Below are positions 12,935 through 44,824 of a DNA stretch of 64,000 nucleotides, piece by piece. Positions within the stretch are counted from its first letter, which is position 1, and the number at the start of each line of letters is the position of its first letter. The position numbers and the translations under genes were made by a program. This DNA comes from Helicostylum pulchrum (lineage: Eukaryota > Mucoromycota > Mucoromycetes > Mucorales > Mucoraceae), in the NCBI GenBank assembly GCA_025677825.1, contig JAIXMO010000015.1, positions 248,001-312,000 on the forward strand, read 5' to 3'. The notes below the pieces were generated by a model. The model saw only the letters and a list, made by a program, of their open reading frames with translations. It had not been told where the DNA came from and did no database searches.

Positions 12935-14179
12935 CAGTAGTGACTCTCTATTTAAGGGTTTGGCCGAAATGCGGAAGAAAATCCACCCTTATACCAAACA
13001 ATGAAGAATAATTACTTCTAAAGAAAAAAGCTCACTGAGATACCTGAGTTTAAATAATCGCTCACATAAGAAATCACTGCAGTTATAATAAATATTGGTT
13101 TTTTTCGATTTTCATTTCTGGGTGTCAACCCCTTTTGTGTTTTTGAGGTTATTTTACCATTACTCATAATCCAATTTGTTTATCTTTGTGGAAAAACAGC
13201 GATTACTCTTTCAGTTTTTGCACTAAAATATGATTTAAAATGGATTAGAAGCGTCTAAACGAGTGCTATACTATCCGTGTTTTTTCCACAAAGATAAACA
13301 AATTGGATTATGAGTAATGGTAAAATAACCTCAAAAAACACAAAAGGGGTTGACCTCCCAAAATGGCCAAAAATGATCAAAAATGATCAACCGAAGAAAA
13401 AAATAAAAAATCGAGAAAACGATAAAACAACATATGGTTTTTAATGTTGGTGTTAAAGACAACATCCTAAAGAGTAACTTTTACCAAGCAACTTGAAAAA
13501 AAGAGTCATTTCCTGATGTTTAATCATACAATGAAAACATCTTATTTCGATCACCGAAAAATGGCCTTTTTTAGAAGTTGTTTCTAAACCTTCACTTAAG
13601 AACACGCGTAACTATGGTGTGTATCTTTTTCTGTAAGAGCTCAAACATTAAAATTATGTTAAATTATATTACATTTTTTATTGATGTCAGTTAAAATAGT
13701 ACAAAGCTATTTATTGGAATACCACATAACAATGCACTTAAAAACTGCTAGCTGTGATATATAGAACTAAACGATATTTTTTGCGTTCACTTTATTGGCT
13801 TATATTTCATTCCTTTCCAATATTTCATCACTTAGCAACAGTCTGTATTTAACTACTTTTCCTAGTTAAATTTCTAAAGATTCAATGCTGATACGCACTC
13901 CATTCAAGTATAAATTTACTATCTTTATATTTTAATTACTTTGTAAGGTTTATTTTATTATTCTCTCTATCGGTTTGATTATTATCCCTTTGTTTTAACA
14001 ATATCGATTTAATTGTACACTTTTGACGACTAGACGCTTTTATATAAGTTAAATAACACTTTTTTATTATTATCACTCTTAAATTTATTTTACATATTTA
14101 GTAATTTTGTGAAGTTGGATTCCACCTTTAAATCGAACATATCCTTAAATCAGGTCACCCCTAAATAGAGCCGCTACTG
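12935..14179 (+). mobile_element. Element 1: non-coding palindromic element with pogo-like terminal inverted repeats
   Basis: The left end reads CAGTAGTGACTCTCTATTTA and the right end is the approximate reverse complement, ending AGCCGCTACTG followed by TA. Short ends beginning CAG next to a TA dinucleotide are what pogo/Tigger-type DNA transposons leave. The 1245-bp interior has no coding frame but holds a large inverted repeat (see next entry). A diverged copy in opposite orientation lies at about 56.9-58.56 kb; matches can be followed through most of the length, for example 12950-13100 with 58410-58550 and 13620-13800 with 57150-57330. It is therefore a non-autonomous, foldback- or MITE-like element. 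Confidence 0.7.
13104..13366. repeat. Internal inverted repeat of element 1
   Basis: Arms of about 85 bp at 13110-13195 and 13280-13366 are nearly perfect reverse complements (key words GGTTATTTTACCATTACTCA and its complement), separated by about 85 bp. Transcription would give a long stable hairpin. Confidence 0.85.
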
Positions 14180-30767: not shown

Positions 30768-31415
30768 GTACGTATATATATTATATATACACAAGTACAC
30801 ATTTTTATTTATTTGAACGCGCTTTATTACGAGTTAAATATACCCAAAGTCATTTATACTTTGTTTTTATGTATTAATTTTTTTTTATATTTACATCTCA
30901 TTCACAGCTTTTTAGTTAAGCTATTGCTTGATTCTTAAGCCTGTCATATAAATTACAACATCTGTCTTCAGGACCTCCTAATAACTCTACAATACATACG
31001 TCAGCGGTAAGAAATATATAATAATACACTATTGTCTCTCTTTTTGTTTAAATTGTTTTTGGAACTTACTATTTTCATACTTGCATATTTCTCAGGAAGG
31101 TGGTTCCGTTTTCACTGCACGGTCGCAATGGTCCGTACCAGCCTTAATTTGTTGCGTAACAGACCGCCGATTTCTTGGCCTATTTCTGTTTAAAATGCGT
31201 TGAAAACCCTTTCTTTTAGTGTCAGTTTCTTGTTTCATATATCATTGTTAAAAAAATATACATAGAAATATTTAATTTTAAATGTTAGCGAGATTCAGTC
31301 ACAAATGAAGTAGATAAGCGGATTAATAATACGTTTATTAATATAAATATATGAAAATATATTGTAGTTTGTTTGCAGCTGTATTAATCAGGTTTAAACC
31401 ATAGTATTCAGCTAT
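30768..31415. other. Intergenic stretch between HSF and the zinc-finger cluster
   Basis: Contains HSF 3' sequence and two exon-like short pieces with splice-like borders near 31013 (GGTAAG) and 31096 (TCTCAG), but no frame that I can connect to a protein. Confidence 0.5.
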
Positions 31416-33155
31416 TCATAGTTTTTCGCTCTTAATACTTAGTTCCTCTGTGTTATAGAATTTTTTCTCACTCGTATTAGATAAGTTATGAGCTCTGGCC
31501 ATGTGTTTGTTGTAATTGTATTTTCGCGTGAAATTTTGATCGCATATGACACAATAAGCACCTTGTGGTAGTTTAGGTAGCGATGTTTTAGGTAGTGATA
31601 TGCCGTGAATCGCATATAGATGACTTTTATACGTTGCCTTTCTTTTGTATACTTTGTCACAGGCGGTGCAATGTCTGTTTACCTCGTCAATAACCGGTAT
31701 TTCATTACGATTAACAAAAGTTGACAATCTGTCAGTTTTGGGTGGGTTTATATGATGATATTTAGACATGTGAGTTCGGTAGAAGCCCAAGTTTTTGTAT
31801 GTTCGATCACAGGAGTTGCAATACCGATTTAAAAGGTCCAAAATAGGTATTGTATCATTAATTATAATTCGTCTACTGGGTGTATAAGGAATATGCACAT
31901 TATGAGCTGTAGCTTGATGGTTTCTGTAGCCCCTCCAGGTAGAAAGTGTTCTATTGCATGGAGTGCAATAGTTTTTTGTATTTTTAACATCTTGATCATT
32001 AACATTTGTCAAAGGTTCGAGTGCCTTGAGTGTTTTGATGCCGTGGATTTTATCCATGTGGATTCTACATAAACGACTTGACAGAAATACCTTTTCACAG
32101 CCGGTACAATATTTCTTAAACCGCAGGTCTCTTTTATTAGGGTTCTTGCAATTTATCCCTTGATAAAGTTCTGGATTTAGGCTAAGATGAACTCTAACCA
32201 AATGCCGTAAATAATTGTGTCTCTCGGCGAACTTTTTATCACAAGCAGCGCAATACTTATTTGTATCAGTAGCGTTTTGTATCATATCAGGAAGAGAAGA
32301 TGATTCTATACGATGTATGCCTTTCAAGTGAGCACTAAAACTCCACATGTTTTTGAGCGTTACATCGCACGTTTTACAGTATAATTTTTTTATATCAAAA
32401 TTGCAGGGCTCCGAGTAAATATCCGGTAAGGTCATTTCGTGAATTTGAACCAAATGCCGTATATAAAATTGATTGGCGTCATATATTTTGTTGCATACAT
32501 TGCAATACAGATTTATTATATCAATTTTCGGTGGTACATTTTTTAGTGTTTTTAGTTTGTTAAGAGGTGCAAAGCGCGGCATATTGTGGTATTCAATCAA
32601 ATGTGTACGGAAGACACTTCGAGTTCTGTACTTAACATCGCATGATATACAGTAGTTGTTTGGATCTTTGAAGTCAGGCATTTTTGACGGGTCTGGGTTT
32701 AAGTGTTTTTTGAGAAGTGGAATATGAAGATTGTTTAGATTGGCCATATGTCTGCGATATAAACTAGCAGATCTGTAACTCTTATTGCATATATTACAGC
32801 GAAGGGTTTTGAGGTCGGCAATCGGTGTCTCTGTAGTTGTATGAAAGTGAAGTTCGTGTTCAAGATAAATTTCGCTTCTAGCAAAACTGATATTACACGT
32901 ACTACAATGTCTACTTTTAGTGATTTTTGGTGAGGCTATGTATGTATAAAGTGAGTGTCAAGTAATCTAATTTCTTTCTATAAAAAGAACCTGTCTTTAG
33001 CACTTACATTGTAAAGTCCCAGTAGAACCATTGCCTTCGTATTTACTTATTTCTAAAGAAATGGGTTCAACTTTAACTGGGGGATATAAGGCACATTTCA
33101 AGTATTCCTTGCTTTCTTCTGTTTCTCGCTTAATATAAGCTCTAGTTTTTGGCAT
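31416..33155 (-). CDS. Zinc-finger cluster gene A: 11-finger C2H2-like protein, original start lost
   Basis: Member of the local family of widely spaced C2H2-like proteins; probably nucleic-acid binding and nuclear. Exon 1 (33155-33008) plus exon 2 (32935-31416), phase-1 intron, 555 aa. Exon 1 holds the family text TRAYIKRETEES and PVKVEP, two psi-K-x-E SUMO-type motifs. Exon 2 holds 11 fingers C-x2-C-x12-H-x4-H with 20-30 residue linkers instead of TGEKP; finger 2 ends in N in place of the last His, as in all paralogs. The paralogs start with MKQ about 13 codons further up; here that ATG is gone (the frame reads LYQKILKSS), so translation must begin at the MPKTR codon or fail. It is divergent from gene B (426 bp between starts). 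Confidence 0.72.
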
Positions 33156-33240
33156 TTCAACTTTTAAATCACGATTAAACACGCTACTTTTTAATATTTT
33201 TTGATAAAGAGGAAAGGAGTTTTTTATTGTTATTTTGACA

Positions 33241-33288
33241 GTCTTTTGTTACTCTACTTTCAGTCACACATGAAACACAGAAAGGGGC
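33241..33288 (-). promoter_or_regulatory. Shared promoter block, copy in front of gene A
   Basis: On the minus strand it reads CCCCTTTCTGTGTTTCATG, then GTGTGACTGAAAGTAGAGTA and ACAAAA. The same block precedes genes B, E and F and lies between D and E. Confidence 0.75.
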
Positions 33289-33486
33289 ATATATGTCGTG
33301 GAACACATCAGGGGTGTAAAATGTATTGAAAGATGATTATCGATATCATAACACAAGGAGGTTTGCGCCTGCGTAAACTCTCAATAATCATCATTGAGTT
33401 CATATGGTGTCGTAATTGATAACCGTCTTTTACTAAAAGCCATATACTCGATTATCAAAAACAAGGAATATGCGGACGGCTCTCCT

Positions 33487-33530
33487 CCCTAATGTGTTAC
33501 ATGTGGTGACTGAAATAGCGTAACAAAATA
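33487..33530 (+). promoter_or_regulatory. Shared promoter block, copy in front of gene B
   Basis: Reads CCCTAATGTGTTACATGTGG, then TGACTGAAATAGCGTAACAA. It ends 52 bp before the gene B start. Confidence 0.75.
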
Positions 33531-33581
33531 TTTCCGACAAGAAAAGAGCTCTTTACTTTTTCTTTTTCTCAATCAAATAAT

Positions 33582-33855
33582 ATGAAACAAAGAATTGCCG
33601 AAAACATAAAAAATAACGCGTTCAAACGTGCTTTGGGGGTAAACAGGCCAAGAACTAGAGCTATAATTAAGCAAGAAACTGATGACAGTAAAGAAACTTT
33701 GAATTGCACTTTATATTCCCCAGTAAAAATTGAATCATCTCCTTCAGAATTAAAAGTGTATGAATATAATGGCCCTACCAAGACTTTGCGGCGTAAGTGT
33801 GGAAAAAGGAAATTACCCAGAGAGAGAAAAAAAAAAAAATTAATGACCTGATACT

Positions 33856-33886
<31 letters not shown>

Positions 33887-35422
33887 GCTTTATCAAAAGG
33901 TATCAAAAGTAGACACTGTAATCTATGTAATAGCACTTTTGCGGCAAGACATCTTTATCTCGAACACGAACTTCACTCCCATAAAACCAAATTGAAGCCC
34001 ATTATCGATCTTGAAACCCTTTGCTGCAATATATGCAATAAGAAATTTAGATCTCCTCAAACGTATCGCTTACATATGGCTACTCGAAATAATATCAACG
34101 TTCCACCTAAGAGAAAAACACTAAAGCCAGATCCATCCATAATTCCTGATATCAAAGACCCGAACAATCGTTGTGGGTCGTGTGATTTTACATACAAGGA
34201 ACGAAAAGGCTATCGTAACCACCTTATTAGAGTCCATAATATGTCGCATCTTCGACCTTCTAAAGAACCTCAAATACTAGATATAAAAACACCAACACTT
34301 GATATCTTGAACACCTATTGCGATTCCTGTGATAGCAGATTTAATGATAAGTGTAGATACTTACAACATTTGAATCAGATTCACAAAATGGTCTTCCCAG
34401 AAAGTTACTATCAGTTAACCAATTTCGATTTTCGCAAAAGATCTTGTAAAATATGCGAGACAGGATATCAAAACATGTATAGTTTTATGCGTCACTTGAA
34501 AAACGTACACGATGTGACTCCACCTCCATCCTCAAAAGCTGATTCGATACCAAGCACTGCTCGCTACAACAAGTACTGCAATGTATGTGATAAAACACTT
34601 TGCAGTGCGAAGGTTTATTTTAATCATTTGGCTATAGTTCATATTGAAAAAGTGCCTGAACTGTATCAGGGAGTTGACTGCACAAATACTAAAGGAAAAG
34701 GCAATGTGCGCAAGCCATATTGTGCCGATTGTAAAAAAATATTTCTCACAAAGAATTTCTATCTTATCCATTTGGAGAAAATCCATGATATTAAACCAGT
34801 CAAATCGCTACCAAATGCAGACAGCCCAGATATTAATGATCCCAATAACCATTGTAGTGCATGCAATAAAACCTTTAGTATCAGAGGCTCATATCGATCA
34901 CATCTTTCTAATTTTCATCAATTGATTCTACCATTTACGAGGAAAAGTATTAATACTAGTGTCGAAACACCTACTATAGATGTTTTAAGCAAGTACTGTA
35001 ATGTCTGTAATGAAAATTTTGAAAATATAGCATACTACCGAGAACATCTTCTCGAAATTCACAGAATACATATACCTTCGACTGCGGAAATGGCAAAGCC
35101 TGTTAATCGCAATGAGACGCCAGTAATCAGCGAAACAACTAACTACTGTACAGCGTGCGACAAGTTATACAAAGATAAGTCAGGGTATAGACGTCATTTG
35201 AGAGTAATTCATGGCGTACAATTGCCTAGACTTGGTTATACGCCATTGCGTGTCAATCCCGACGTTAAACCAGACATAAATAACAAGGATAACTATTGTG
35301 CTGCATGCGATAGACACTATGCGAGCGGGTATGGTTACCGCACTCACTTGGAAAAAATGCACAATATAAGAAGATTATTAAATATCAAGCAAGAAGATAC
35401 AACTAAACCATGTTTGAATTGA
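33582..35422 (+). CDS. Zinc-finger cluster gene B: 11-finger C2H2-like protein
   Basis: Two exons, 33582-33792 and 33888-35422, phase-1 intron of 95 bp holding a (TA)n run, 581 aa. The N-terminal module (MKQ start, NRPRTRAIIKQETDDSKET, SPVKIESS) carries two psi-K-x-E motifs. Eleven fingers follow, each C-x2-C-x12-H-x4-H (for example CGSCDFTYKERKGYRNHLIR then VH), with conserved linkers such as PDIKDPNN and DILNTYC. The C-terminus ends LNIKQEDTTK, a third psi-K-x-E site. Finger number and order match the other paralogs, so the cluster grew by whole-gene duplication. The 3' half of exon 2 exists again as a perfect-looking inverted copy at 35881-36736. Target and function unknown; DNA or RNA binding is inferred from the fingers. 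Confidence 0.82.
34567..35422 (+). repeat. Inverted duplication, left arm (3' half of gene B)
   Basis: Position x in this arm corresponds to 71303-x in the right arm. All segments I compared are identical and contain no indels, and the derived peptides agree in several frames. Homology fades a few bases after the stop codon. Confidence 0.9.
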
Positions 35423-35519
35423 TATAAGGTATCGTCTATTTGTTCGATCGATACCACCACATTTTTTTTAAGTCCCTAATTAAAGGGATTTTATTTTTAA
35501 ATAAAAACAAGACTTTTAC

Positions 35520-35709
35520 TCTGCAAAGTATTACCAGGGCCATTATTTTTATACTCGCTTAATTCTGAAGAAAACGATTTAGTTTTATGGGAATATAAAG
35601 TGCAATCCAAAGTTTCTTGCTTAATGCTAGATCTAGTTCTTGATCTGTACCTTTTCAAAGCACAGTGGGACACGTCGTTTCTAACATTTTTAGCTAATTT
35701 TTGTTTCAT
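35520..35709 (-). pseudogene. Orphan first exon of a zinc-finger family member (gene C)
   Basis: Starts with ATG at 35709, reads MKQKLAKNVRNDV, then SSIKQETLDCTLYS, and ends at a proper phase-1 donor (GTAAAA after 35520). Compared with the 211-bp first exons of B, D, E and G it is 21 bp shorter but still in frame. Downstream on this strand there is no finger exon: the antisense of gene B begins 98 bp away. A partial promoter block (CCTTATGTGTTTCATACGTG) lies upstream at about 35736-35765. It is a stranded exon left by rearrangement. Confidence 0.75.
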
Positions 35710-35880
35710 ATTGTTTAGTAAAGAGTATTAGATCTACTCACGTATGAAACACATAAGGTAAAGTTTCGTATAAGGTGTAGGTTTATTAAAAAGAAGATCG
35801 ATTTTCCCTTTAGTTAAGGGCTTATGAAACAGTACTATTTTTTTGTAGTGGTATCGACCAAATATAGCCTACAATATATA

Positions 35881-36736
35881 TCAATTCAAACATGGTTTAG
35901 TTGTATCTTCTTGCTTGATATTTAATAATCTTCTTATATTGTGCATTTTTTCCAAGTGAGTGCGGTAACCATACCCGCTCGCATAGTGTCTATCGCATGC
36001 AGCACAATAGTTATCCTTGTTATTTATGTCTGGTTTAACGTCGGGATTGACACGCAATGGCGTATAACCAAGTCTAGGCAATTGTACGCCATGAATTACT
36101 CTCAAATGACGTCTATACCCTGACTTATCTTTGTATAACTTGTCGCACGCTGTACAGTAGTTAGTTGTTTCGCTGATTACTGGCGTCTCATTGCGATTAA
36201 CAGGCTTTGCCATTTCCGCAGTCGAAGGTATATGTATTCTGTGAATTTCGAGAAGATGTTCTCGGTAGTATGCTATATTTTCAAAATTTTCATTACAGAC
36301 ATTACAGTACTTGCTTAAAACATCTATAGTAGGTGTTTCGACACTAGTATTAATACTTTTCCTCGTAAATGGTAGAATCAATTGATGAAAATTAGAAAGA
36401 TGTGATCGATATGAGCCTCTGATACTAAAGGTTTTATTGCATGCACTACAATGGTTATTGGGATCATTAATATCTGGGCTGTCTGCATTTGGTAGCGATT
36501 TGACTGGTTTAATATCATGGATTTTCTCCAAATGGATAAGATAGAAATTCTTTGTGAGAAATATTTTTTTACAATCGGCACAATATGGCTTGCGCACATT
36601 GCCTTTTCCTTTAGTATTTGTGCAGTCAACTCCCTGATACAGTTCAGGCACTTTTTCAATATGAACTATAGCCAAATGATTAAAATAAACCTTCGCACTG
36701 CAAAGTGTTTTATCACATACATTGCAGTACTTGTTG
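35881..36736 (-). pseudogene. Inverted copy of the 3' half of gene B (fingers 6-11), no first exon; right arm of the duplication
   Basis: Encodes the same last 264-285 residues as gene B, from within finger 6 (NKYCNVCDK) to IKQEDTTKPCLN. No promoter, first exon or splice acceptor precedes it; the sequence stops matching B exactly at 36736, where a Fanzor/TnpB-like fragment on the other strand begins. It is probably not expressed as a proper protein. A start at the internal ATG-like codon (36675) is possible but unsupported. Confidence 0.8.
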
Positions 36737-36969
36737 CCATGACTGGCCTAATTGCTGTCACCATTGACAAGTATTCAACCTCGCAGACATGCAGTTTATG
36801 CGATAACAGAACCTTAAAGGGCGCCGGTAATAAAGGGAAAAAATCTCTCATCTGTGAAAACTGCAACAAAATTTGACAAAGGGCAAGAAATAAGTTGGCT
36901 GTGACAAGCTCTGTTTTTAAGATGAAAGACGTGCCTGTTGCTTTCAAGAGAGCTACTACAAGCAACTAA
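36737..36969 (+). pseudogene. C-terminal remnant of a Fanzor/TnpB-like RNA-guided nuclease
   Basis: The frame from about 36737 reads AVTIDKYSTSQTCSLCDN, then KGKKSLICENCNKI, a TGA, and QRARNKLA...KDVPVAFKRATTSN. This matches the TnpB/Fanzor C-terminal zinc ribbon (TSxxCxxC ... CxxC, then W-x-R-D-x-N-AA-x-N). The TGA at 36874-36876 sits where the conserved Trp is expected, and the RuvC-III Asp position reads Ala, so even the remnant is inactivated. Only the last 75 or so codons remain. Family assignment is from motif memory; a generic zinc ribbon is the alternative. Confidence 0.6.
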
Positions 36970-37158
36970 TGCAAGTCCCAAATTGTCGTAACAGACATGG
37001 TTCGTATTTCAAAAAGACTTTATATTTTGTACAAGTAATTTTATTACACTTCACATAATCCGGCTTGCCTTTTTTGAAACATAATAGATCTCCATGTGTG
37101 TATTTAAGGTTGCAAAAAGTTTTTATCTATGAGTCTCACTATATTATGGCTTTATTAA

Positions 37159-38982
37159 TCAAATATGTAACTTTTTATCAGTATCTTCTTGCTTAATTTT
37201 TAGCTTTTTCATATTATGGATTGTGGCCAAGTGCTTCCTGTAACCAGAAATTCCCGTGTAAGTTCTATTGCACGCGGTACAATAGTTTTTTTCATTATCC
37301 CAGTCAGGTATAATATCGTCATTAATAGGCAATATTCTCTTCTTAGGTATTTTTATATTGTGAATCTTGTAGAGGTGATTTAGATATGATTTTCTATTTT
37401 TATATACTTTGTCACAAGCGGTACAGTGGTTGTTTATTTCGTCAATGACTGGAATTTCAGTACGATTACAAAGCTTTGGCAACCTGTTACTTTGAGAGCG
37501 TCTTATGCCATGACAACTATACAAGTGACTTCGGTAATACGACAACCGATTATATGATTTATCGCAGACATTGCAGTACTTATTTAATTCATTCACAATA
37601 GGTGTCTCCGTTTTAATAGCAGGTCCCTTGGGTAATGGAGGTAAAACAAAATGATGAGTCTTAAATAAATGTTGACGGTATATACTTTTTTCAGAGTATG
37701 TTCTATTACATAAAGCACAATGGTTATTCGGATCGTCAATGTCTGGGTCATTAATACCGGGAAACAATCTGATTGGTTTGATATTATGAATTTTATCCAT
37801 ATGAATTTGACATAAACGTTTCAACAGAAATACTTTTCGGCAATCAGTGCAATATTTTTTATGTACTATGTCCAGCTTACTTGGCTTTGCGCAACCTATT
37901 CCTTGATAAAGTTCTGGAATTTTGTCAAGATGAATGGAAGTCAGATGATGTAAATAGTTTTTTCTTTTGATCAGCGTTATATCGCAAGCAATGCAATAAT
38001 GATACTTATCATAAATGTCTGGTATTGGATCAGGACAAGGTAGCGGTGGCGGTGGTTCCGTACAATGTATTTTTTGCAAGTGGATGTTAAATGTTCGCTT
38101 CTTTTGAAATCTTATATCACATACTTTACAATAAAAGGTTTCATAATCAAAATTACTCTGTTCCGAGTAAATATTCGGTAGAGCCATTCGATGAGTTCGA
38201 ACCAAATGAATTATATAAATACTTTTGGAACGATATGTTTTGTCGCAGAAATCACAATAAAGAGTTAACATATCAATTGTTAAATTGGTGCTTCTTAGTT
38301 TGCGTAGTTTTTTTGGTGTTCTAACATGCGACATACCATGTGTTCTAACCAAGTGTGCACTGTAGGTAGCTCGTCTCTTGAACTTAAAATCGCATGAAAT
38401 ACAATAATTATTTGGGTCTTCAGCATCAGGTATTTTAGATGGATCTGAACCAGGTTTTGCGTTTGATCGGATACGTGGAACATGAATATTATTTCGACTG
38501 GCCATATGTGACCGGTACATCCAAGCAGATGTATACATCTTATTGCATATATTACAACGAAGTGTTACGAGGTCTATAACTGGCGTCTCCTTAGTTGTAT
38601 GTGAATGGAGTTTGTGGTCGAGGTAAACCCCTCTGCTCCAAAATGTGATATCACATATACTACAATGTTTGTTTTTTATACCTTTCGGTAAAGCTATATA
38701 TACATATATGTAACGCATGTTAGATCGTATACTTTTTATCTTTTTCCTTAACTTTTGCATTTAGTACTTACATCGCAAAGTCACAGTAGAACCACTGTTT
38801 TCGCACTCGTCTATTTCTAATGAAGACGATTCAACTTTTACTGGTGAATATAAAGCGCGTCTCATACTATCATTGCTGTCATCAGTTTCTTGCTTAATAT
38901 AAGCTCTTGTTCTTGGCCTGTCTGCTTTCAAATCATGACCTAGCAGGTTAATAGTGATATTTTTATCTTTTTCTTGTTTCAT
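37159..38982 (-). CDS. Zinc-finger cluster gene D: 11-finger C2H2-like protein
   Basis: Two exons, 38982-38772 and 38693-37159 (211 and 1535 bp, exactly the lengths found in gene B), phase-1 intron, 581 aa. N-terminal module: MKQEKDKN, DRPRTRAYIKQETDDSNDS, SPVKVESS with two psi-K-x-E sites. Eleven C-x2-C-x12-H-x4-H fingers; the C-terminus again has LKIKQEDTDKK. Equal exon lengths show B and D descend from one ancestor without net indels, yet their sequences differ at many positions. Head-to-head with gene E, with 168 bp between the start codons. Confidence 0.82.
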
Positions 38983-39049
38983 GTTGTTTAAGGAAGAAAT
39001 AAAGAGGGGAATTTTTTTTCGTGTGTAAAGTTTTATCTATAGCACTTTA

Positions 39050-39094
39050 CCCCTTACTGTGTTTCACTTGTGACTGACTCTAGTGTAACAAGAT
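39050..39094. promoter_or_regulatory. Shared promoter block between divergent genes D and E
   Basis: Reads CCCCTTACTGTGTTTCACTT, then GTGACTGACTCTAGTGTAAC and AAGAT on the plus strand, 57 bp before gene E and 68 bp before gene D. It is the only copy in this 168-bp gap, so it may serve both directions. Confidence 0.75.
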
Positions 39095-39150
39095 TTTCGC
39101 CATACACACATAAAAATAAAATTATTTTCTTTCCCCTTTATTCAAATAAT

Positions 39151-40952
39151 ATGAAACAAAAAACAGAAAAAATTGTCAAAAACGACGTGTTTACACGCGA
39201 TTTTAAAGTAGACAGGCCAAGAACAAGAGCTTATATTAAGCAAGAAACTGAAGACAGCAAAGAGAGCATGAGATGCGCTTTATATTCAACAGTAAAAGTT
39301 GAACCGTTGTCTTCAGAAATAGGAAAAGATACAAATAGTCACCCTATTGAGGCTTTTCAGCGTAAGTGTCGACAATAAAATTCAAATTTAAAACAAGAAA
39401 AAATAATACGACCTGTCACTCACACTTATACGTAGACTTACCGGAAGAAGTGAAAAAAAGACACTGCGGTGTATGCAACATCACTTTCGCGAATAGAAAT
39501 ATTTATCTTAATCATGACATTCACACCCATAACACTAAGGAGGCACCCATTTACGACCCCAAAACTCTTTACTGTAATATCTGCAAGAAAACATATAAAT
39601 CTAGTACAGGGTATCGCCATCATATGATCACTCTAAATAATACTCGTTTATCAACTGCCTGGAGACTAATACCAAACCCATTGAAAGAACCTGATGCAAA
39701 GGACCCAAACAATCACTGTGCGTCCTGCAATTTTACGTTCCGGGACCGGAATGCATATCGTCATCACCTGCTTATACGCCACAACATACCGAGGGTTACA
39801 CGCCTTAAAGAACTAAAAAATGTAAAAGATGAACCACCAATAATTGACATTATAAACCTTTACTGCGATGTTTGCAACAAGGTTTACGATGTCAAGAGTA
39901 TTTATATAGCACATTTAGTTCGAATTCACGGAATGGTTTTACCAGATATCTACTCGGAACAAAAGCATTTCGATCCAGAAAACCGTTATTGTAGACTGTG
40001 TGATAAAAAATATAAAGGCATGTCGAGTTTTAAGGCTCATTTGCAAAATATACATCATACGGAATTACCTTCTCGTCCTCTTCTGTTACAAAGTACTGAC
40101 GATAAAAACAATTATTGCGTTATATGCGATAGAAAGTTTGGTGATAGACCACACTATCTCGATCACCTGGCTCGGATTCACCGTAGCGAAGACCTGGACA
40201 TTTTTAAAGGAGTAGATTGCGCAAAACCTAGTAAGGCAGATAAGGACGGTAATAGATACTGTTCTGATTGTCATGAGGTATTTATGACGAGAATGTTCTT
40301 TCAAATTCATTTGGATAGAATACATGGTATTAAACCACTTAAACCACTGAAACCACCCAAAAAGTTGCCAGATGTTGACGATCCAGATATTGATGATCCA
40401 AATAACTATTGCGTATCATGCAATAAAACATATGCCAGTAAAAGAGTATATCGCAGTCATCTGGTTAATTTTCATAATCTGATTTTACCCGGGAGTAGAA
40501 TTGCTGCTACTAACAATACAGCACCCGTTGTGGACCTTTTAAAGAAGTATTGCAATGTATGTGATAAAACATATGCCTGTTTGAGAGGCTACCGAGGACA
40601 CATGTCTAAACTTCATGGTATAGTACTACACCGACGAAACATACGGCGACATTTTGTTAATCGAAATGAGACACCAGTAATCAGCAAAATAGAGAACCAC
40701 TGTACCGCGTGCGACAAAATATTCCATGATAGACGAGGGCATAGAATACATTTTCGTCGTATTCACGGTATGCTGCTACCTGCACTTCGGCCAATTAATC
40801 ACGATATAACGCCTGACATAGATGATAAAAATCATTATTGCGCCTCATGTGATAGAACTTACGCGAGTAGAGCAAGTTACTCGAACCACTTGTATTATAC
40901 TCACAAAATGAAAATAAGCGACATCCGGGAAAAAAATAAAATAAAAAAATAA
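39151..40952 (+). CDS. Zinc-finger cluster gene E: 11-finger C2H2-like protein
   Basis: Two exons, 39151-39361 (211 bp) and 39436-40952, phase-1 intron, 575 aa. The first exon has KNDVFTRDFKVDRPRTRAYI, KQETEDSKES and TVKVEP, keeping both N-terminal psi-K-x-E motifs. Eleven fingers follow in the same order as in B and D (finger 4: CDVCNKVYDVKSIYIAHLVR then IH; finger 10: CTACDKIFHDRRGHRIHFRR). The start at 39151 was chosen over an upstream in-frame ATG because MKQ is conserved among paralogs. Unlike B, D and F it has no C-terminal IKQED motif; it ends in a lysine-rich tail. Frame intact, so probably functional. Confidence 0.82.
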
Positions 40953-40969
40953 AACAACTTGCTTAAAAC

Positions 40970-41011
40970 CCCCTAATGCGTTTCATCTGAATGTAGTGTA
41001 ACAAAGACTGT
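40970..41011 (+). promoter_or_regulatory. Shared promoter block, copy in front of pseudogene F
   Basis: Reads CCCCCTAATGCGTTTCATCT, then GAATGTAGTGTAACAAAGAC. It starts 18 bp after the stop of gene E and ends 25 bp before the dead start codon of F. Confidence 0.7.
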
Positions 41012-41035
41012 CAAAAAAAAACTTTTCCCCCCTTT

Positions 41036-42855
41036 ATCAAACAAAAAATAGATAAAAACGCGCTGAAACCTGATTTAAAAGTAGAAAGGCTACATACTAG
41101 AACATATATTAAAGGAGAAACTGAAGACAGTAATGATTACTCGAAATGTGCTTTGTATTCCCCAATGAAAGTTGAATCGCCTTCTTTAGACCTAAGCAAG
41201 TACGAAAATAATGGACCTGCTGAAGTTTTACAATGTATGTGCTCTTTTTTAAAAAGAATTAATATGCAAACAGCCTAATACTCAGTCTTTATATAGATTT
41301 ATCGACGGATACCCGAAACAGACCCTATAGTATATGCAACATTACTTTGGCGAAAAGAAGTCTTTGCCTTGATCACGAACATCACTCTCATAAAACTAAA
41401 GAAACACCCATCATCGATATCGAAACCCTTTGCTGTAATATATGCAAGAAAACATGCGCATCTCTTACGACGTACAATAGACATATGGCCAATCTGAATA
41501 ATATTCACGTCCCGCTTATTAGAAAAAAACCTAAACCAGACTCACCAAAAACGCCTGATATCAAAGATGAAAACAATTGTTTGTCATATAATTATACCTT
41601 CAAGTCACGAAAAACCTACATGTTACACTTGATTAAAGTCCACCATATTTCGCATATTAGACCCTTAAAAGAACTACACAAACCGAGAAACGTGATGCCA
41701 ACAATTAATCTCTTAGATCGTTATTGTGATGTCTGTAATAGAGCATATAACATCAGGAGAATTTGTATACGCCACTTGATTCAATTTCATGGAATGGTAT
41801 TACCTGAGAGTTATTCGGATTCAAGTAATTTTGACTCAAAAATGCGTTAATGTAAAGTGTGCGATATGAAATATAACTGCAAGACGCGCTTTACATGTCA
41901 TTTAAGAGACATACATCGTACAGAATTACCTTGTCATACTGATTTGATATCAGATACCAATGATCAAAACTATTATTGAATTGCATGCGATAAGGATTTC
42001 GGTCGAAGAAAACTCTACATAGACCATCTAATTAGCCACCATCTTGACAAAAAGCCAGGCCTTTATCTAGGAATGGATTATACAGATCCTAGTAATGGGG
42101 AGGAGAAGAGTCGGGTATATTGTTCTGAATGCCAAAAAGCATTTTTGTCAAAACGTTTGGGTCAAATTCACATGGATAAAATCCATGCTACAAGCACACC
42201 GTCACCGTTGTCAAGTGTTAATATTCCTGATGTTACTAATCCCGATAACCATTGTACTGCATGCAATATAACGTACACTAAAGGATACATGTATCGAAAA
42301 CATTTGGCCAGTGTTCATAATTTGATGATATCTCCAATACCCCAGAGTCGCATCGTCATTAGCGAGACAAAACCTGTTGTGGACAATTTAAATAAGTATT
42401 GTAACGTCTGTGATAGAAAATACGTAAGGTTGGGCTACTACCATTCACACCTGTCAAGACATCACAATATAAATTTTCCCTCAAGTAGTAGATTGTCTAG
42501 CATTGTGAATTGTAACGACACACCGCTCATTGACGAAATAAACAACCGTTGTACAGCCTGTGATAAAGTATACAAAAATAAAAAAGAGTATCGATCACAT
42601 TTGTTAAAGATTCATGGCATAGAATTACTTAGGCTCAAGTATAGTGCACTTCGAATCAACCATGATATCACACCCGACATCAATAATAAAGATAATTCTT
42701 GTGCTGCATGCGATAGAACTTATGTGAACAGAAGTGGCTTTACACATCGCTTGGAGACAGTTCATAATATTGGAACACTAAGAATTAAACAAGAAGATAC
42801 AGTTTTAAAAAAAAACTGTGAATTGAAACAAGACATAGCATATAAAACAAACTAA
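41036..42855 (+). pseudogene. Zinc-finger cluster gene F: degenerate copy
   Basis: Same two-exon plan as its neighbours: exon 1 41036-41234, exon 2 41297-42855. The start codon is ATC instead of ATG (ATC AAA CAA where paralogs have ATG AAA CAA). In exon 2 a TAA at 41848-41850 replaces the Tyr of RYC, and a TGA at 41977-41979 replaces the first Cys of finger 6. Finger 1 has also lost its first Cys (PYSICN). Outside these points the frame is open and the family text is clear, including a C-terminal RIKQEDT. The mutations are simple substitutions, which suggests fairly recent loss of function. Fragments 41347-41850 and 42073-42855 are pieces of this gene, not separate genes. Confidence 0.85.
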
Positions 42856-43155
42856 GGTTTTAATTCATGACTTGGATAAAAAAATAAAAAAATCTATCAT
42901 TGAATCTGTAAATAATTTATCTTTAAGACACTCCTCCCCTTTACCAGCCTAAGCTGTATTTATTCTGTTCCAAAGTTACATTGGTTATTTTCCTATGATT
43001 TTAACCCAATCTTATTGAAAGTAAAAAAACTGAAAATAAAAAACTATTTTCTCGCTTAATCTTTGGTTCTTTTATATTATCAATTTTAGCTAAACGGTGT
43101 GTATAATTTACTTCCAGTCGAATAAGTTTTATTACATGTCGCGCAATGGTAATCT

Positions 43156-44824
43156 TTATGTCTCTACTTCGAGTGTTATTTCCTGAACAATCCGAATACT
43201 ATCACGCAGCTGTATGTCGTGAATACGACGCAAATGACTTCTATAACCCTTTCTGCTTGTGTATATGTTGTCACAAGCTGAACAATAATTGCGTATTTCG
43301 TCAATAACTGGTACTTCATTACGATTAACAGAATTTTTCTGTTCTTCAGCTCGGCGTAATTTCGTTTGGTGAAAATTAAACATATGATGTCGATATGAAT
43401 TCAATGTTTTAAATGTCTTATCACAGACATTACAATTCTTATTTAAAACGTCCAAAACAGGTTTTATATCGCTATTTGCAACTACACTATTGGTTATAGT
43501 ACAAAGTTTACGCAGATTATGCACACTCTTCAAATGAAATCGATAATGCGCGCTGTTAGAATAATTTCTATTGCACGAGTTACAATGGTGATTTGGAGTG
43601 CTAGCATAATCATCATTTGGCAAATATTCGACAGGTTTGATATCATGGATTGTATCCACATGAATGTAATATAAATCTTTCTGCAGAAATAATTTTCGGC
43701 AGTCGGCACAATATCTCTTATATAGGATGTCTGCCGTACTAGGGGTTTCACAGTCTCTTCCTTGAAGAAGCTCTGGTATCTTGTCATGATGAGAAACGAG
43801 GTGACATATGTAGGACGATTTACTGCAAAACCCTTTATCACAAGCAATACAGTAATTATCTTGATCATAAGCGTCTGGTATTAAACCAGGACGAGGAGAT
43901 GGAAGTTCCGTACGATGTATGTTCCGCAAATGAACATTAAAGTGCACCTTAGTTTTATACTTCATATCACACGCTTTACAATAACAACTTTCGGAATCAA
44001 AATTACTAGGTTCCGAGTAAGAATCCGGTAAGACTACTTCATGAAGTCGAACTAAATGAGTTATATAACCTCTCTTGGAATCAAATACTCTGTTACAGAC
44101 ATTACAATACAAATTTAAAATATCAATTGTTGGCTTCCTGTTTTTTGGCACCGGTATTGTTATTGAGAGTCGAAGATGTGACATTTGATGGAACTTAACC
44201 AAGTGTATATAGTATTTGCTTCTCGACCCGGACGTAAAATCACATGAAATACAGTAATTATTTGGATTTTCGATATCAGGTGTTTTTAATGGGTTTGGTT
44301 TTGGTTTTGGTTTTGGTTTTGGTTTGAGAAGTGGAACACGAACATTATTTAGATGGTTCATATGGTTACGATATTTCATCATGGTTCTAAATCGCTTAAA
44401 ACAAATATTACAACAAAGATTTTCGAGGTCGATAATAGGTTTCTCTTTCGTTTTATGTACATGAAGTTCGTGGTCAAGATAACGAGCTCTATCACTAAAA
44501 GTGATGTCACATATACCACAGTGTTTGTTTTTGGTACCTGTGGATAAAGCTGTATCGGGTGAGTATCATATATATATGTATATATATTACATGCTGCCTT
44601 TTTTAACGCTTACATTGCAAAGTCTTAGTAGAGCTACATTTTTCATATTCTTTTAATTTTAAAGGAGACGATTCAGTTTTCAACGGAGAGTATAAAGCGC
44701 ATTTCAAATATTCTTTGCTGTCTTCAATTTCTTGCTTAATAGAAACTCTAGTTGGAGATCTTTCTCTTTTCAAAACGCGATTAGACGCGTCCTTTTTAAC
44801 GGGTTTAACTTTTTTTTGTTTCAT
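43156..44824 (-). CDS. Zinc-finger cluster gene G: 10-finger C2H2-like protein, C-terminus truncated by a frameshift
   Basis: Two exons, 44824-44614 (211 bp) and 44549-43156, phase-1 intron, 534 aa. The first exon contains RSPTRVSIKQEIEDSKEY and SPLKTESS. Ten fingers are intact. After QEITLEVET a stop ends the protein, but the eleventh finger is still legible in the +1 frame just downstream (43140-43040: KDYHCATCNKTYS), so one base was gained (or two lost) near 43160. A KPKPKPKP stretch, encoded by GGTTTT-type repeats at 44291-44326, replaces the usual linker after finger 2. It may still work as a 10-finger protein. It converges with pseudogene F. Confidence 0.72.

Follow-up and report, generated by a model that had tools for sequence, protein, structure and literature searches.

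A dispersed family of eleven-finger C2H2 genes in the mould Helicostylum pulchrum with positive selection on predicted DNA-contact residues and a possible role against transposable elements

We analysed a window of 64 kb (C57:248001-312000) from the Mucorales mould Helicostylum pulchrum, whose own genome comprises 32.2 Mb on 168 contigs. Seven related zinc-finger loci, A to G, lie at positions 31416-44824 of this window. They belong to a large family in which a short first exon carries two psi-K-x-E (SUMO-acceptor type) motifs and a single long exon encodes an array of eleven C2H2 fingers. We found positive selection on the contact residues of the fingers and purifying selection on their ligands. 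We put at about even the chance that the proteins are sequence-specific DNA binders that chase, most likely, transposable elements (TEs) by means of a SUMO-type repressive module.

The fingers align with few gaps and thus each site could be classed by its position within the finger. As contact positions we used helix positions -1, 2, 3 and 6, which touch DNA in known C2H2 fingers. For five recent paralogs (ten pairs, synonymous divergence dS 0.14-0.21) we obtained the following proportions of nonsynonymous and synonymous differences (pN/pS): 0.013/0.200 for the ligands, 0.037/0.191 for the structural core, 0.304/0.133 for the contacts, 0.121/0.121 for the other finger positions and 0.135/0.174 for the linkers. 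The structural-core class is taken from pair counts only, as its parameters stayed at their start values in the maximum-likelihood (ML) fits and were not used there. Contact pN over finger-wide pS was 2.25 (1.55-3.11, bootstrap over fingers). Among all 1820 sets of four positions drawn from the 16 non-structural ones, the contact set ranked first in the close pairs and second in more distant pairs. For the pair set L016-L017, L020-L029 and L030-L032 (L numbers label further loci), whose pairs share branches in the tree, the ratio was 1.55 (bootstrap 1.02-2.15).

The codon ML analysis (IQ-TREE, Goldman-Yang (GY) model, fixed tree) of eight recent paralogs, all outside the window, gave a contact omega, the ratio of nonsynonymous to synonymous rates, of 3.57 (against omega 1, twice the log-likelihood difference is 24.4, p = 8e-7), which is the outcome of a check that an earlier note on this DNA had proposed. 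The values for ligands, other finger positions and linkers were 0.09, 1.07 and 0.92, respectively. We also drew 200 sets at random from the other finger positions, and none of them reached 3.57 (maximum 2.73). With 16 open copies, including A, B, D, E and G, the contact omega was 1.96 (p = 7e-5) next to 0.016 for ligands, 0.70 for other finger positions and 0.62 for linkers; synonymous sites are far diverged in this fit. Without finger 7 the contact omega rose to 4.64 for the eight copies and to 2.70 for the 16. The contacts of finger 7 hardly differ between copies (mostly ..LI), while those of the other fingers vary, so this finger may serve an unchanging function.

For the window's own genes the support comes from the 16-copy fit, from the paralogs and from the orthologs of B, D and E. 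Across six pairs of window paralogs, 80-95% of the contact positions differ and the ligand positions are unchanged. The ortholog comparisons with Thamnidium elegans were made at the protein level, with P0001 truncated at residue 465, the point at which its gene model enters another exon 1. For B, D and E together we observed changes at 49/124 contacts, 0/124 ligands, 99/372 other finger positions and 162/720 linker positions. The contacts thus changed more often than other finger and linker positions combined (261/1092, Fisher p = 3e-4) and than other finger positions alone (p = 0.009). In exon 1 of the same orthologs 56 of 216 positions (26%) had changed.

The copies in the window and the repeat associated with them are the following.

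31050..31238 (end approximate), minus strand: eighth copy, relic exon 1 only, starting at 31238
31416..33224, minus strand: gene A, nearly intact; long exon 31416-32935 intact, exon 1 near 33008-33224
33582..35422, plus strand: gene B, intact; exon 1 33582-33792, intron 95 bp, exon 2 33888-35422; 581 amino acids
34567..35439, plus strand: inverted-repeat arm inside and just past B, pairing with fragment C
35525..35709 (end approximate), minus strand: orphan exon 1 between the arms of the B/C inverted repeat
35864..36736, minus strand: C, fragment, an inverted copy of B's fingers 6-11; annotated as P0028
37159..38982, minus strand: gene D, intact; exon 1 38772-38982, exon 2 37159-38693; 581 amino acids
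39151..40952, plus strand: gene E, intact; exon 1 39151-39361, exon 2 39436-40952; 575 amino acids
41040..42855, plus strand: F, pseudogene; reading frame interrupted by two stops, ATG missing from its usual place
43156..44824, minus strand: gene G, nearly intact; exon 1 44614-44824; the relic runs on to about 43050

The seven loci of the earlier note are all present, and the relic exon 1 at 31238 makes an eighth. Four loci had been called intact. This is certain for B, D and E, and the fourth could only be A or G, each of which is flawed: A lacks the usual ATGAAACAA start and has an in-frame ATG about 22 codons further in, and exon 2 of G is open through finger 10 and breaks frame in finger 11. 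Decay grows across A, G, F, C and the eighth relic. The common plan of B, D and E consists of a 211-bp exon 1, a GTAAGT donor, a phase-1 intron and a single long exon. The layout ascribed to all loci holds for these three and for G, for A but for its start, and less so for F and C. D and E are arranged head-to-head.

Ten of the fingers follow C-x2-C-x12-H-x3-5-H, mostly with x4, and to that extent agree with the eleven C-x2-C-x12-H-x4-H fingers described before. Finger 2 is atypical (C-x2-C-x12-H-x7-[HRN]); it keeps both Cys and the first His, and its second ligand is displaced or absent. The strict pattern counts ten fingers in A, B, D and E and nine in G. The AlphaFold (AF2) model of P0003, the Thamnidium ortholog of D (22 sequences), shows eleven separate beta-beta-alpha units. 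Its mean predicted local distance difference test (pLDDT) is 68.5 and its predicted template modelling score (pTM) 0.24, and the mutual placement of the units is left unpredicted. With a pLDDT below 50 at the N-terminus, the N-terminal module is predicted to be disordered. The linkers were rightly described as long, though in A, B, D, E and G they measure 17-28 rather than 20-30 residues and 62-67 across finger 2; we found no TGEKP-type 7-residue linkers in these five genes.

Pfam scans (E up to 1) of P0003, P0004, P0005, P0012 and exon 1 of B, D and E listed no KRAB, SCAN, BTB or ZAD domain, and gave no match to SET or another catalytic domain and none to a named effector domain. For A a match to ZNF451, a SUMO ligase, exceeded its cut-off; we judged it a generic finger match and rejected the relationship. 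A fold search returned the arrays of CTCF, ZFP568 and PRDM9 at low TM-scores, which says only 'C2H2 array', and a sequence search of solved structures gave three weak matches.

The two psi-K-x-E motifs of exon 1 lie outside the finger array. The first, [IV]KQE, is present in 34 of 38 exon 1s, the exceptions being A (IKRE), F, L025 and L026, and its lysine is kept in every row aligned there. The second fits the strict pattern in 28 of the 38, with a close variant in five of the remaining ten; in G it reads LKTE. A third motif, IKQED, stands near the C-terminus of B and D and also ends F, just as had been noted. Exon 1 is under purifying selection, with an omega of 0.45 over 10 copies (log-likelihood -772.5 versus -779.1 at omega 1). 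Nine divergent relatives were inspected, and all seven with an N-terminus longer than 60 residues carry psi-K-x-E there (a raw count). PVKVE-type sequences resemble the 'synergy control' motifs of sumoylated vertebrate factors. Judged by these motifs, the lysines of exon 1 are predicted SUMO sites.

A conserved module of about 42 bp precedes most copies and is nearly family-specific. Reading 27 upstream regions from the start codon, we saw by eye a stretch like CCTTAATGYGTTTCATATGTGACTGAATCTAGTGTAACAAAA in most of them; we did not see it upstream of G or of the second copy of L011. From the module we derived a 22-base pattern, which matched the genome 33 times with up to 3 mismatches, compared to 2 matches for the reversed pattern. 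For 25 of the 33, a family exon 2 follows on the same strand within 700 bp. Four of the other eight were fetched: L034 and L037 come with relic copies, and L035 and L036 have no recognisable gene. By eye, the module of L035 passes directly into sequence resembling the 3' flank of the family, the arrangement expected from an internal deletion. We also built a matrix from 12 copies outside the window and scanned it over the 64 kb. The five top matches are those of A, the D/E pair, B, the orphan exon 1 and the eighth relic.

33240..33287, minus strand: upstream module of A, rank 1 in the 64 kb
39050..39097, plus strand: upstream module between D and E, one for the divergent pair, rank 2
33485..33532, plus strand: upstream module of B, rank 3
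35714..35761, minus strand: upstream module of the orphan exon 1, rank 4
31275..31322, minus strand: upstream module of the eighth relic, rank 5
40969..41016, plus strand: degraded upstream module of F, weak, rank 8 and below two matches elsewhere in the window; visible by eye

Common descent alone could account for part of this conservation. By eye, however, the module seems more conserved than the sequence around it where the encoded proteins share about 45% identity. The module often holds TGTTTCA, for example at 39050-39097. This string resembles TGAAACA, the pheromone-response element of yeast Ste12.

To describe the whole family we compared exon 2 of E to its own genome and obtained at least 96 matches, which were grouped into 59 loci (same strand, gaps below 500 bp). 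The best match to another copy has an E-value of 2.5e-149, so the relatedness of the copies is far beyond chance. Leaving out six weak loci (C78, C13, C94, C84, C82 and C103:887 kb), the family comprises 53 loci on 21 contigs, some of them fragments, with 14 on C57 and 13 on C158. The cluster of the earlier note is thus real, but most of the family lies elsewhere in the genome. Many matches carry stops; among the 26 pieces made up of the cluster and loci L009-L033, we counted 16 second exons with an open frame of 430 codons or more.

Protein searches, which reach only relatives sharing exact words, gave 22, 37 and 14 relatives at differing cut-offs. All relatives with species names are from Mucorales, and the close ones come only from T. 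elegans, two H. pulchrum strains and Mucor flavus; P0002 of H. pulchrum KT1b is 93% identical to E over 46%, and P0032 and P0039 are further relatives with 44-50% identity. With 53 loci we rejected a single-copy conserved gene; a known family of that kind, which the earlier note had named as fatal to its proposal, is thus not what we found. A tree of 35 rows gives one-to-one Helicostylum-Thamnidium pairs with 100/100 support for B-P0004, D-P0003, E-P0001 and L011-P0014, and the dispersed clade of L016, L017, L020, L028 and L029 contains only H. pulchrum and M. flavus rows. A cluster likely exists in Thamnidium too, because one of its contigs (606,781 bases) carries P0003, P0004, P0014, P0023 and P0029. 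A divergent relative is found in L038 (693-4055, minus strand), where a frame of 1120 residues is open with many long-linker fingers. The names of the M. velutinosus entries P0035 ('ethionine resistance protein') and P0045 ('Translation machinery-associated protein 46') are attached to C2H2 proteins of the long-linker type and seem to be misannotations, P0035 being the one whose sequence was inspected.

Flank-to-flank repeats occur in 6 of 23 loci. In L022 this is an inverted repeat of 115 bp and 82% identity, and in L012, L016, L017, L021 and L030 they are short direct repeats. The L022 repeat adjoins a second, oppositely oriented family fragment and probably consists of the two copies' own 3' flanks. 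L016, L017, L019 and L021 share about 3 kb upstream too. L030-L032 share 2.3 kb in all, and at these three close copies we saw no terminal repeats or target-site duplications by eye. The repeat CCCTTAAATAGARCCGCTACTG was tried as the end of the duplicated unit and rejected: it occurs at 389 places in the genome and is therefore a separate abundant repeat. In the window it lies at 14158 and 58542, and some of the places listed are paired on opposite strands at distances of about 1.7 kb or 80 bp, by eye like the terminal repeats of DNA transposons.

The B/C inverted repeat spans 34567-36736. Its arms are 873 bp long and 424 bp apart; the first 860 bp are identical and all 6 differences fall in the last 13 bp. 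It is possibly a recent inverted duplication or conversion, an assembly artefact, or a source of hairpin RNA for RNA interference (RNAi). The end of a TnpB/Fanzor-like protein (36709-36876, plus strand; Pfam Cas12f1-like_TNB 25.4 bits, cut-off 26.3) abuts it, and similar ends with 62-74% identity are found on contigs C130, C132, C139 and C79. The neighbours of the cluster are ordinary genes: kinesin, ABC transporter, F-box, heat-shock factor, myosin, peroxin-3, cytidylyltransferase-like and glycosyltransferase. Ten frames were checked for this and 2 had no match.

We propose a large, fast-turning-over fungal family of DNA-binding proteins in which the N-terminal psi-K-x-E module is joined to the eleven-finger array. 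The fingers would recognise specific DNA with helix positions -1, 2, 3 and 6. Selection would favour new binding specificity in new copies, most likely towards changing TEs. The N-terminal module, if sumoylated, would recruit repressive chromatin, and many copies would be switched on together through the common upstream module. The sequences show the family with its anatomy, the selection on ligands, exon 1 and contacts, and the common upstream module, and from these we infer the DNA ligand, the TE targets, sumoylation, silencing and joint expression. A little short of even stands the bolder claim that Mucorales independently evolved a KRAB-like genome defence, with a fast-diversifying set of co-expressed eleven-finger guides and a sumoylated module that silences transposons; if true, the targeting of transposons by zinc-finger guides would no longer count as a metazoan innovation. 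Finding the same selection signature in a fungal family of other finger spacing and with another N-terminal module would show a convergent strategy, and such a family would offer a culturable test system with a small genome.

Several observations weigh against the reading as DNA binders that chase TEs. With long linkers and no TGEKP, the fingers may not engage DNA as one uninterrupted array. The best Pfam matches include zf-met and zf-C2H2_jaz, the latter named for binding of double-stranded RNA, and zf-C2H2_jaz reached 31.9-65.7 bits in A, B, D, E and G (cut-off 22.6); another C2H2 model scores higher in each of these genes, so the match is not specific. The omegas of single positions are noisy: position 5, not a classical contact, has 3.6, and position 2 is at the upper bound. 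In the D ortholog pair exon 1 (26/72) and the contacts (16/44) changed equally, both 36%. In the L011-P0014 pair 5/40 ligands and 21/36 contacts changed; L011 looks in decay from its ligand changes and the pair was left out of the pooled count. Two close paralog pairs show ligand changes (2/44 and 2/40), and 4 of the 8 copies used in the close test reach only 8-9 fingers by the strict pattern. Mucor also controls TEs by RNAi (PMC11943222).

The same adaptive DNA binders could have targets other than TEs (host promoters, satellites, centromere or ribosomal DNA repeats, a selfish region) and act as regulators of species-specific programmes. We consider this unlikely, although it deserves serious weight: the selection and anatomy results suit any fast-changing DNA target, and mating-related control is conceivable from the likeness of TGTTTCA to the yeast element. 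However, dozens of copies, with 80-95% of the contacts differing between window paralogs and the ligands unchanged in six pairs, would call for many renewing targets, and TEs would be the simplest supply. Even with non-transposon targets, something drives repeated change of DNA-binding specificity in these genomes.

That the fingers instead act on RNA together with the RNAi machinery, binding for instance TE transcripts that are structured or double-stranded, is improbable. Fingers that read the shape of double-stranded RNA would not predict positive selection at base-contact positions, even though zf-met and zf-C2H2_jaz are above their cut-offs and the long linkers resemble those of JAZ-type proteins. 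Selection on contact residues and their faster change between orthologs are also PRDM9-like, and a role in recombination or chromosome behaviour, of PRDM9 or centromere type and driven by hotspot loss or drive, would account for them; with many dispersed copies instead of one, and no SET or other catalytic domain matched, we give this very little credence. Least credible of all is neutral birth and death or carriage as mobile-element cargo, with the copies as relics: many matches with stops, two upstream modules without a gene, an abundant repeat near five examined loci and the flank repeats of L022 and five other loci agree with it, but the contact omega is significantly above 1 with a ligand omega near 0, B, D and E have 1:1 Thamnidium orthologs without ligand changes, the duplicated units are unequal (2.3 to 5.4 kb), the L022 repeat has the explanation given above and the abundant repeat is far more numerous than the family. 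The outcome that all copies are neutral relics, named in the earlier note, thus did not occur, because the contacts are under positive selection.

Returning to DNA binders directed at TEs, the published background is as follows. Passages of Emerson and Thomas 2009 (PMC2604467) describe large families with many tandem fingers as metazoan-only, with few in plants and fungi; the fungi in their figure 1 are five yeasts. In passages of Wells et al. 2023 (PMC10547256) zinc-finger targeting of TEs is called a likely metazoan innovation. According to passages of Shelest 2017 (PMC5415576), C2H2 factors outnumber Zn clusters in zygomycetes, and the eleven-finger family is not described in those passages. 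Judged by titles and the starts of abstracts, we found no paper describing it in the open-access literature. We regard as new the selection on contact residues in fungal paralogs and the shared upstream module of about 42 bp.

Among the relatives, P0034 of M. circinelloides, P0035 of M. velutinosus, P0040 of M. bainieri, P0021 of Parasitella and P0037 of Pilaira have long-linker fingers with DPNxYC-type linkers, and all five carry an N-terminal psi-K-x-E. They are only 27-29% identical to the family, and this exon-1 sequence was not seen in them. With JAZ-type fingers binding double-stranded RNA the family shares the matches to zf-C2H2_jaz and zf-met. JAZ proteins have long linkers too. Unlike JAZ, the selection pattern suits base-specific and not shape reading. 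With SUMO-regulated transcription factors the family shares conserved psi-K-x-E motifs outside the DNA-binding domain.

The FiNZ genes of cyprinid fish resemble the family in having expanded independently, in carrying an N-terminal module peculiar to them and in the positive selection of their contact residues, with the differences that they are animal genes and that TE repression is demonstrated there by knockdown, the fungal family being known from sequence (passages of PMC10547256). A further comparison is with the KRAB zinc-finger proteins (KZFPs, KAP1/TRIM28), likewise large, lineage-specific, many-finger families that are partly clustered; the fungal expansion shows this with 53 loci and close named relatives in three genera. 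In KZFPs the N-terminal module and the fingers are on separate exons, as in this fungal family. Recent KZFP paralogs also show positive selection on base-contact residues (passages of PMC2604467). Of the poly-zinc-finger (poly-ZF) family as Emerson and Thomas 2009 define it in those passages, the many fingers are present and the 7-residue linker is not; in mammalian poly-ZF orthologs the helix is conserved, whereas in the fungal orthologs contacts change faster than the rest. Further differences are that no KRAB domain was matched, that the linkers have 17-28 residues instead of 7 and that the host is a fungus. The parallel to KRAB zinc fingers drawn in the earlier note therefore stands as an analogy: the selection on contact residues that it predicted was found, and KRAB, a named effector domain and TGEKP linkers were not. 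Our best reading is that the family is a convergent analogue of the KRAB zinc-finger genes, not a member of them.

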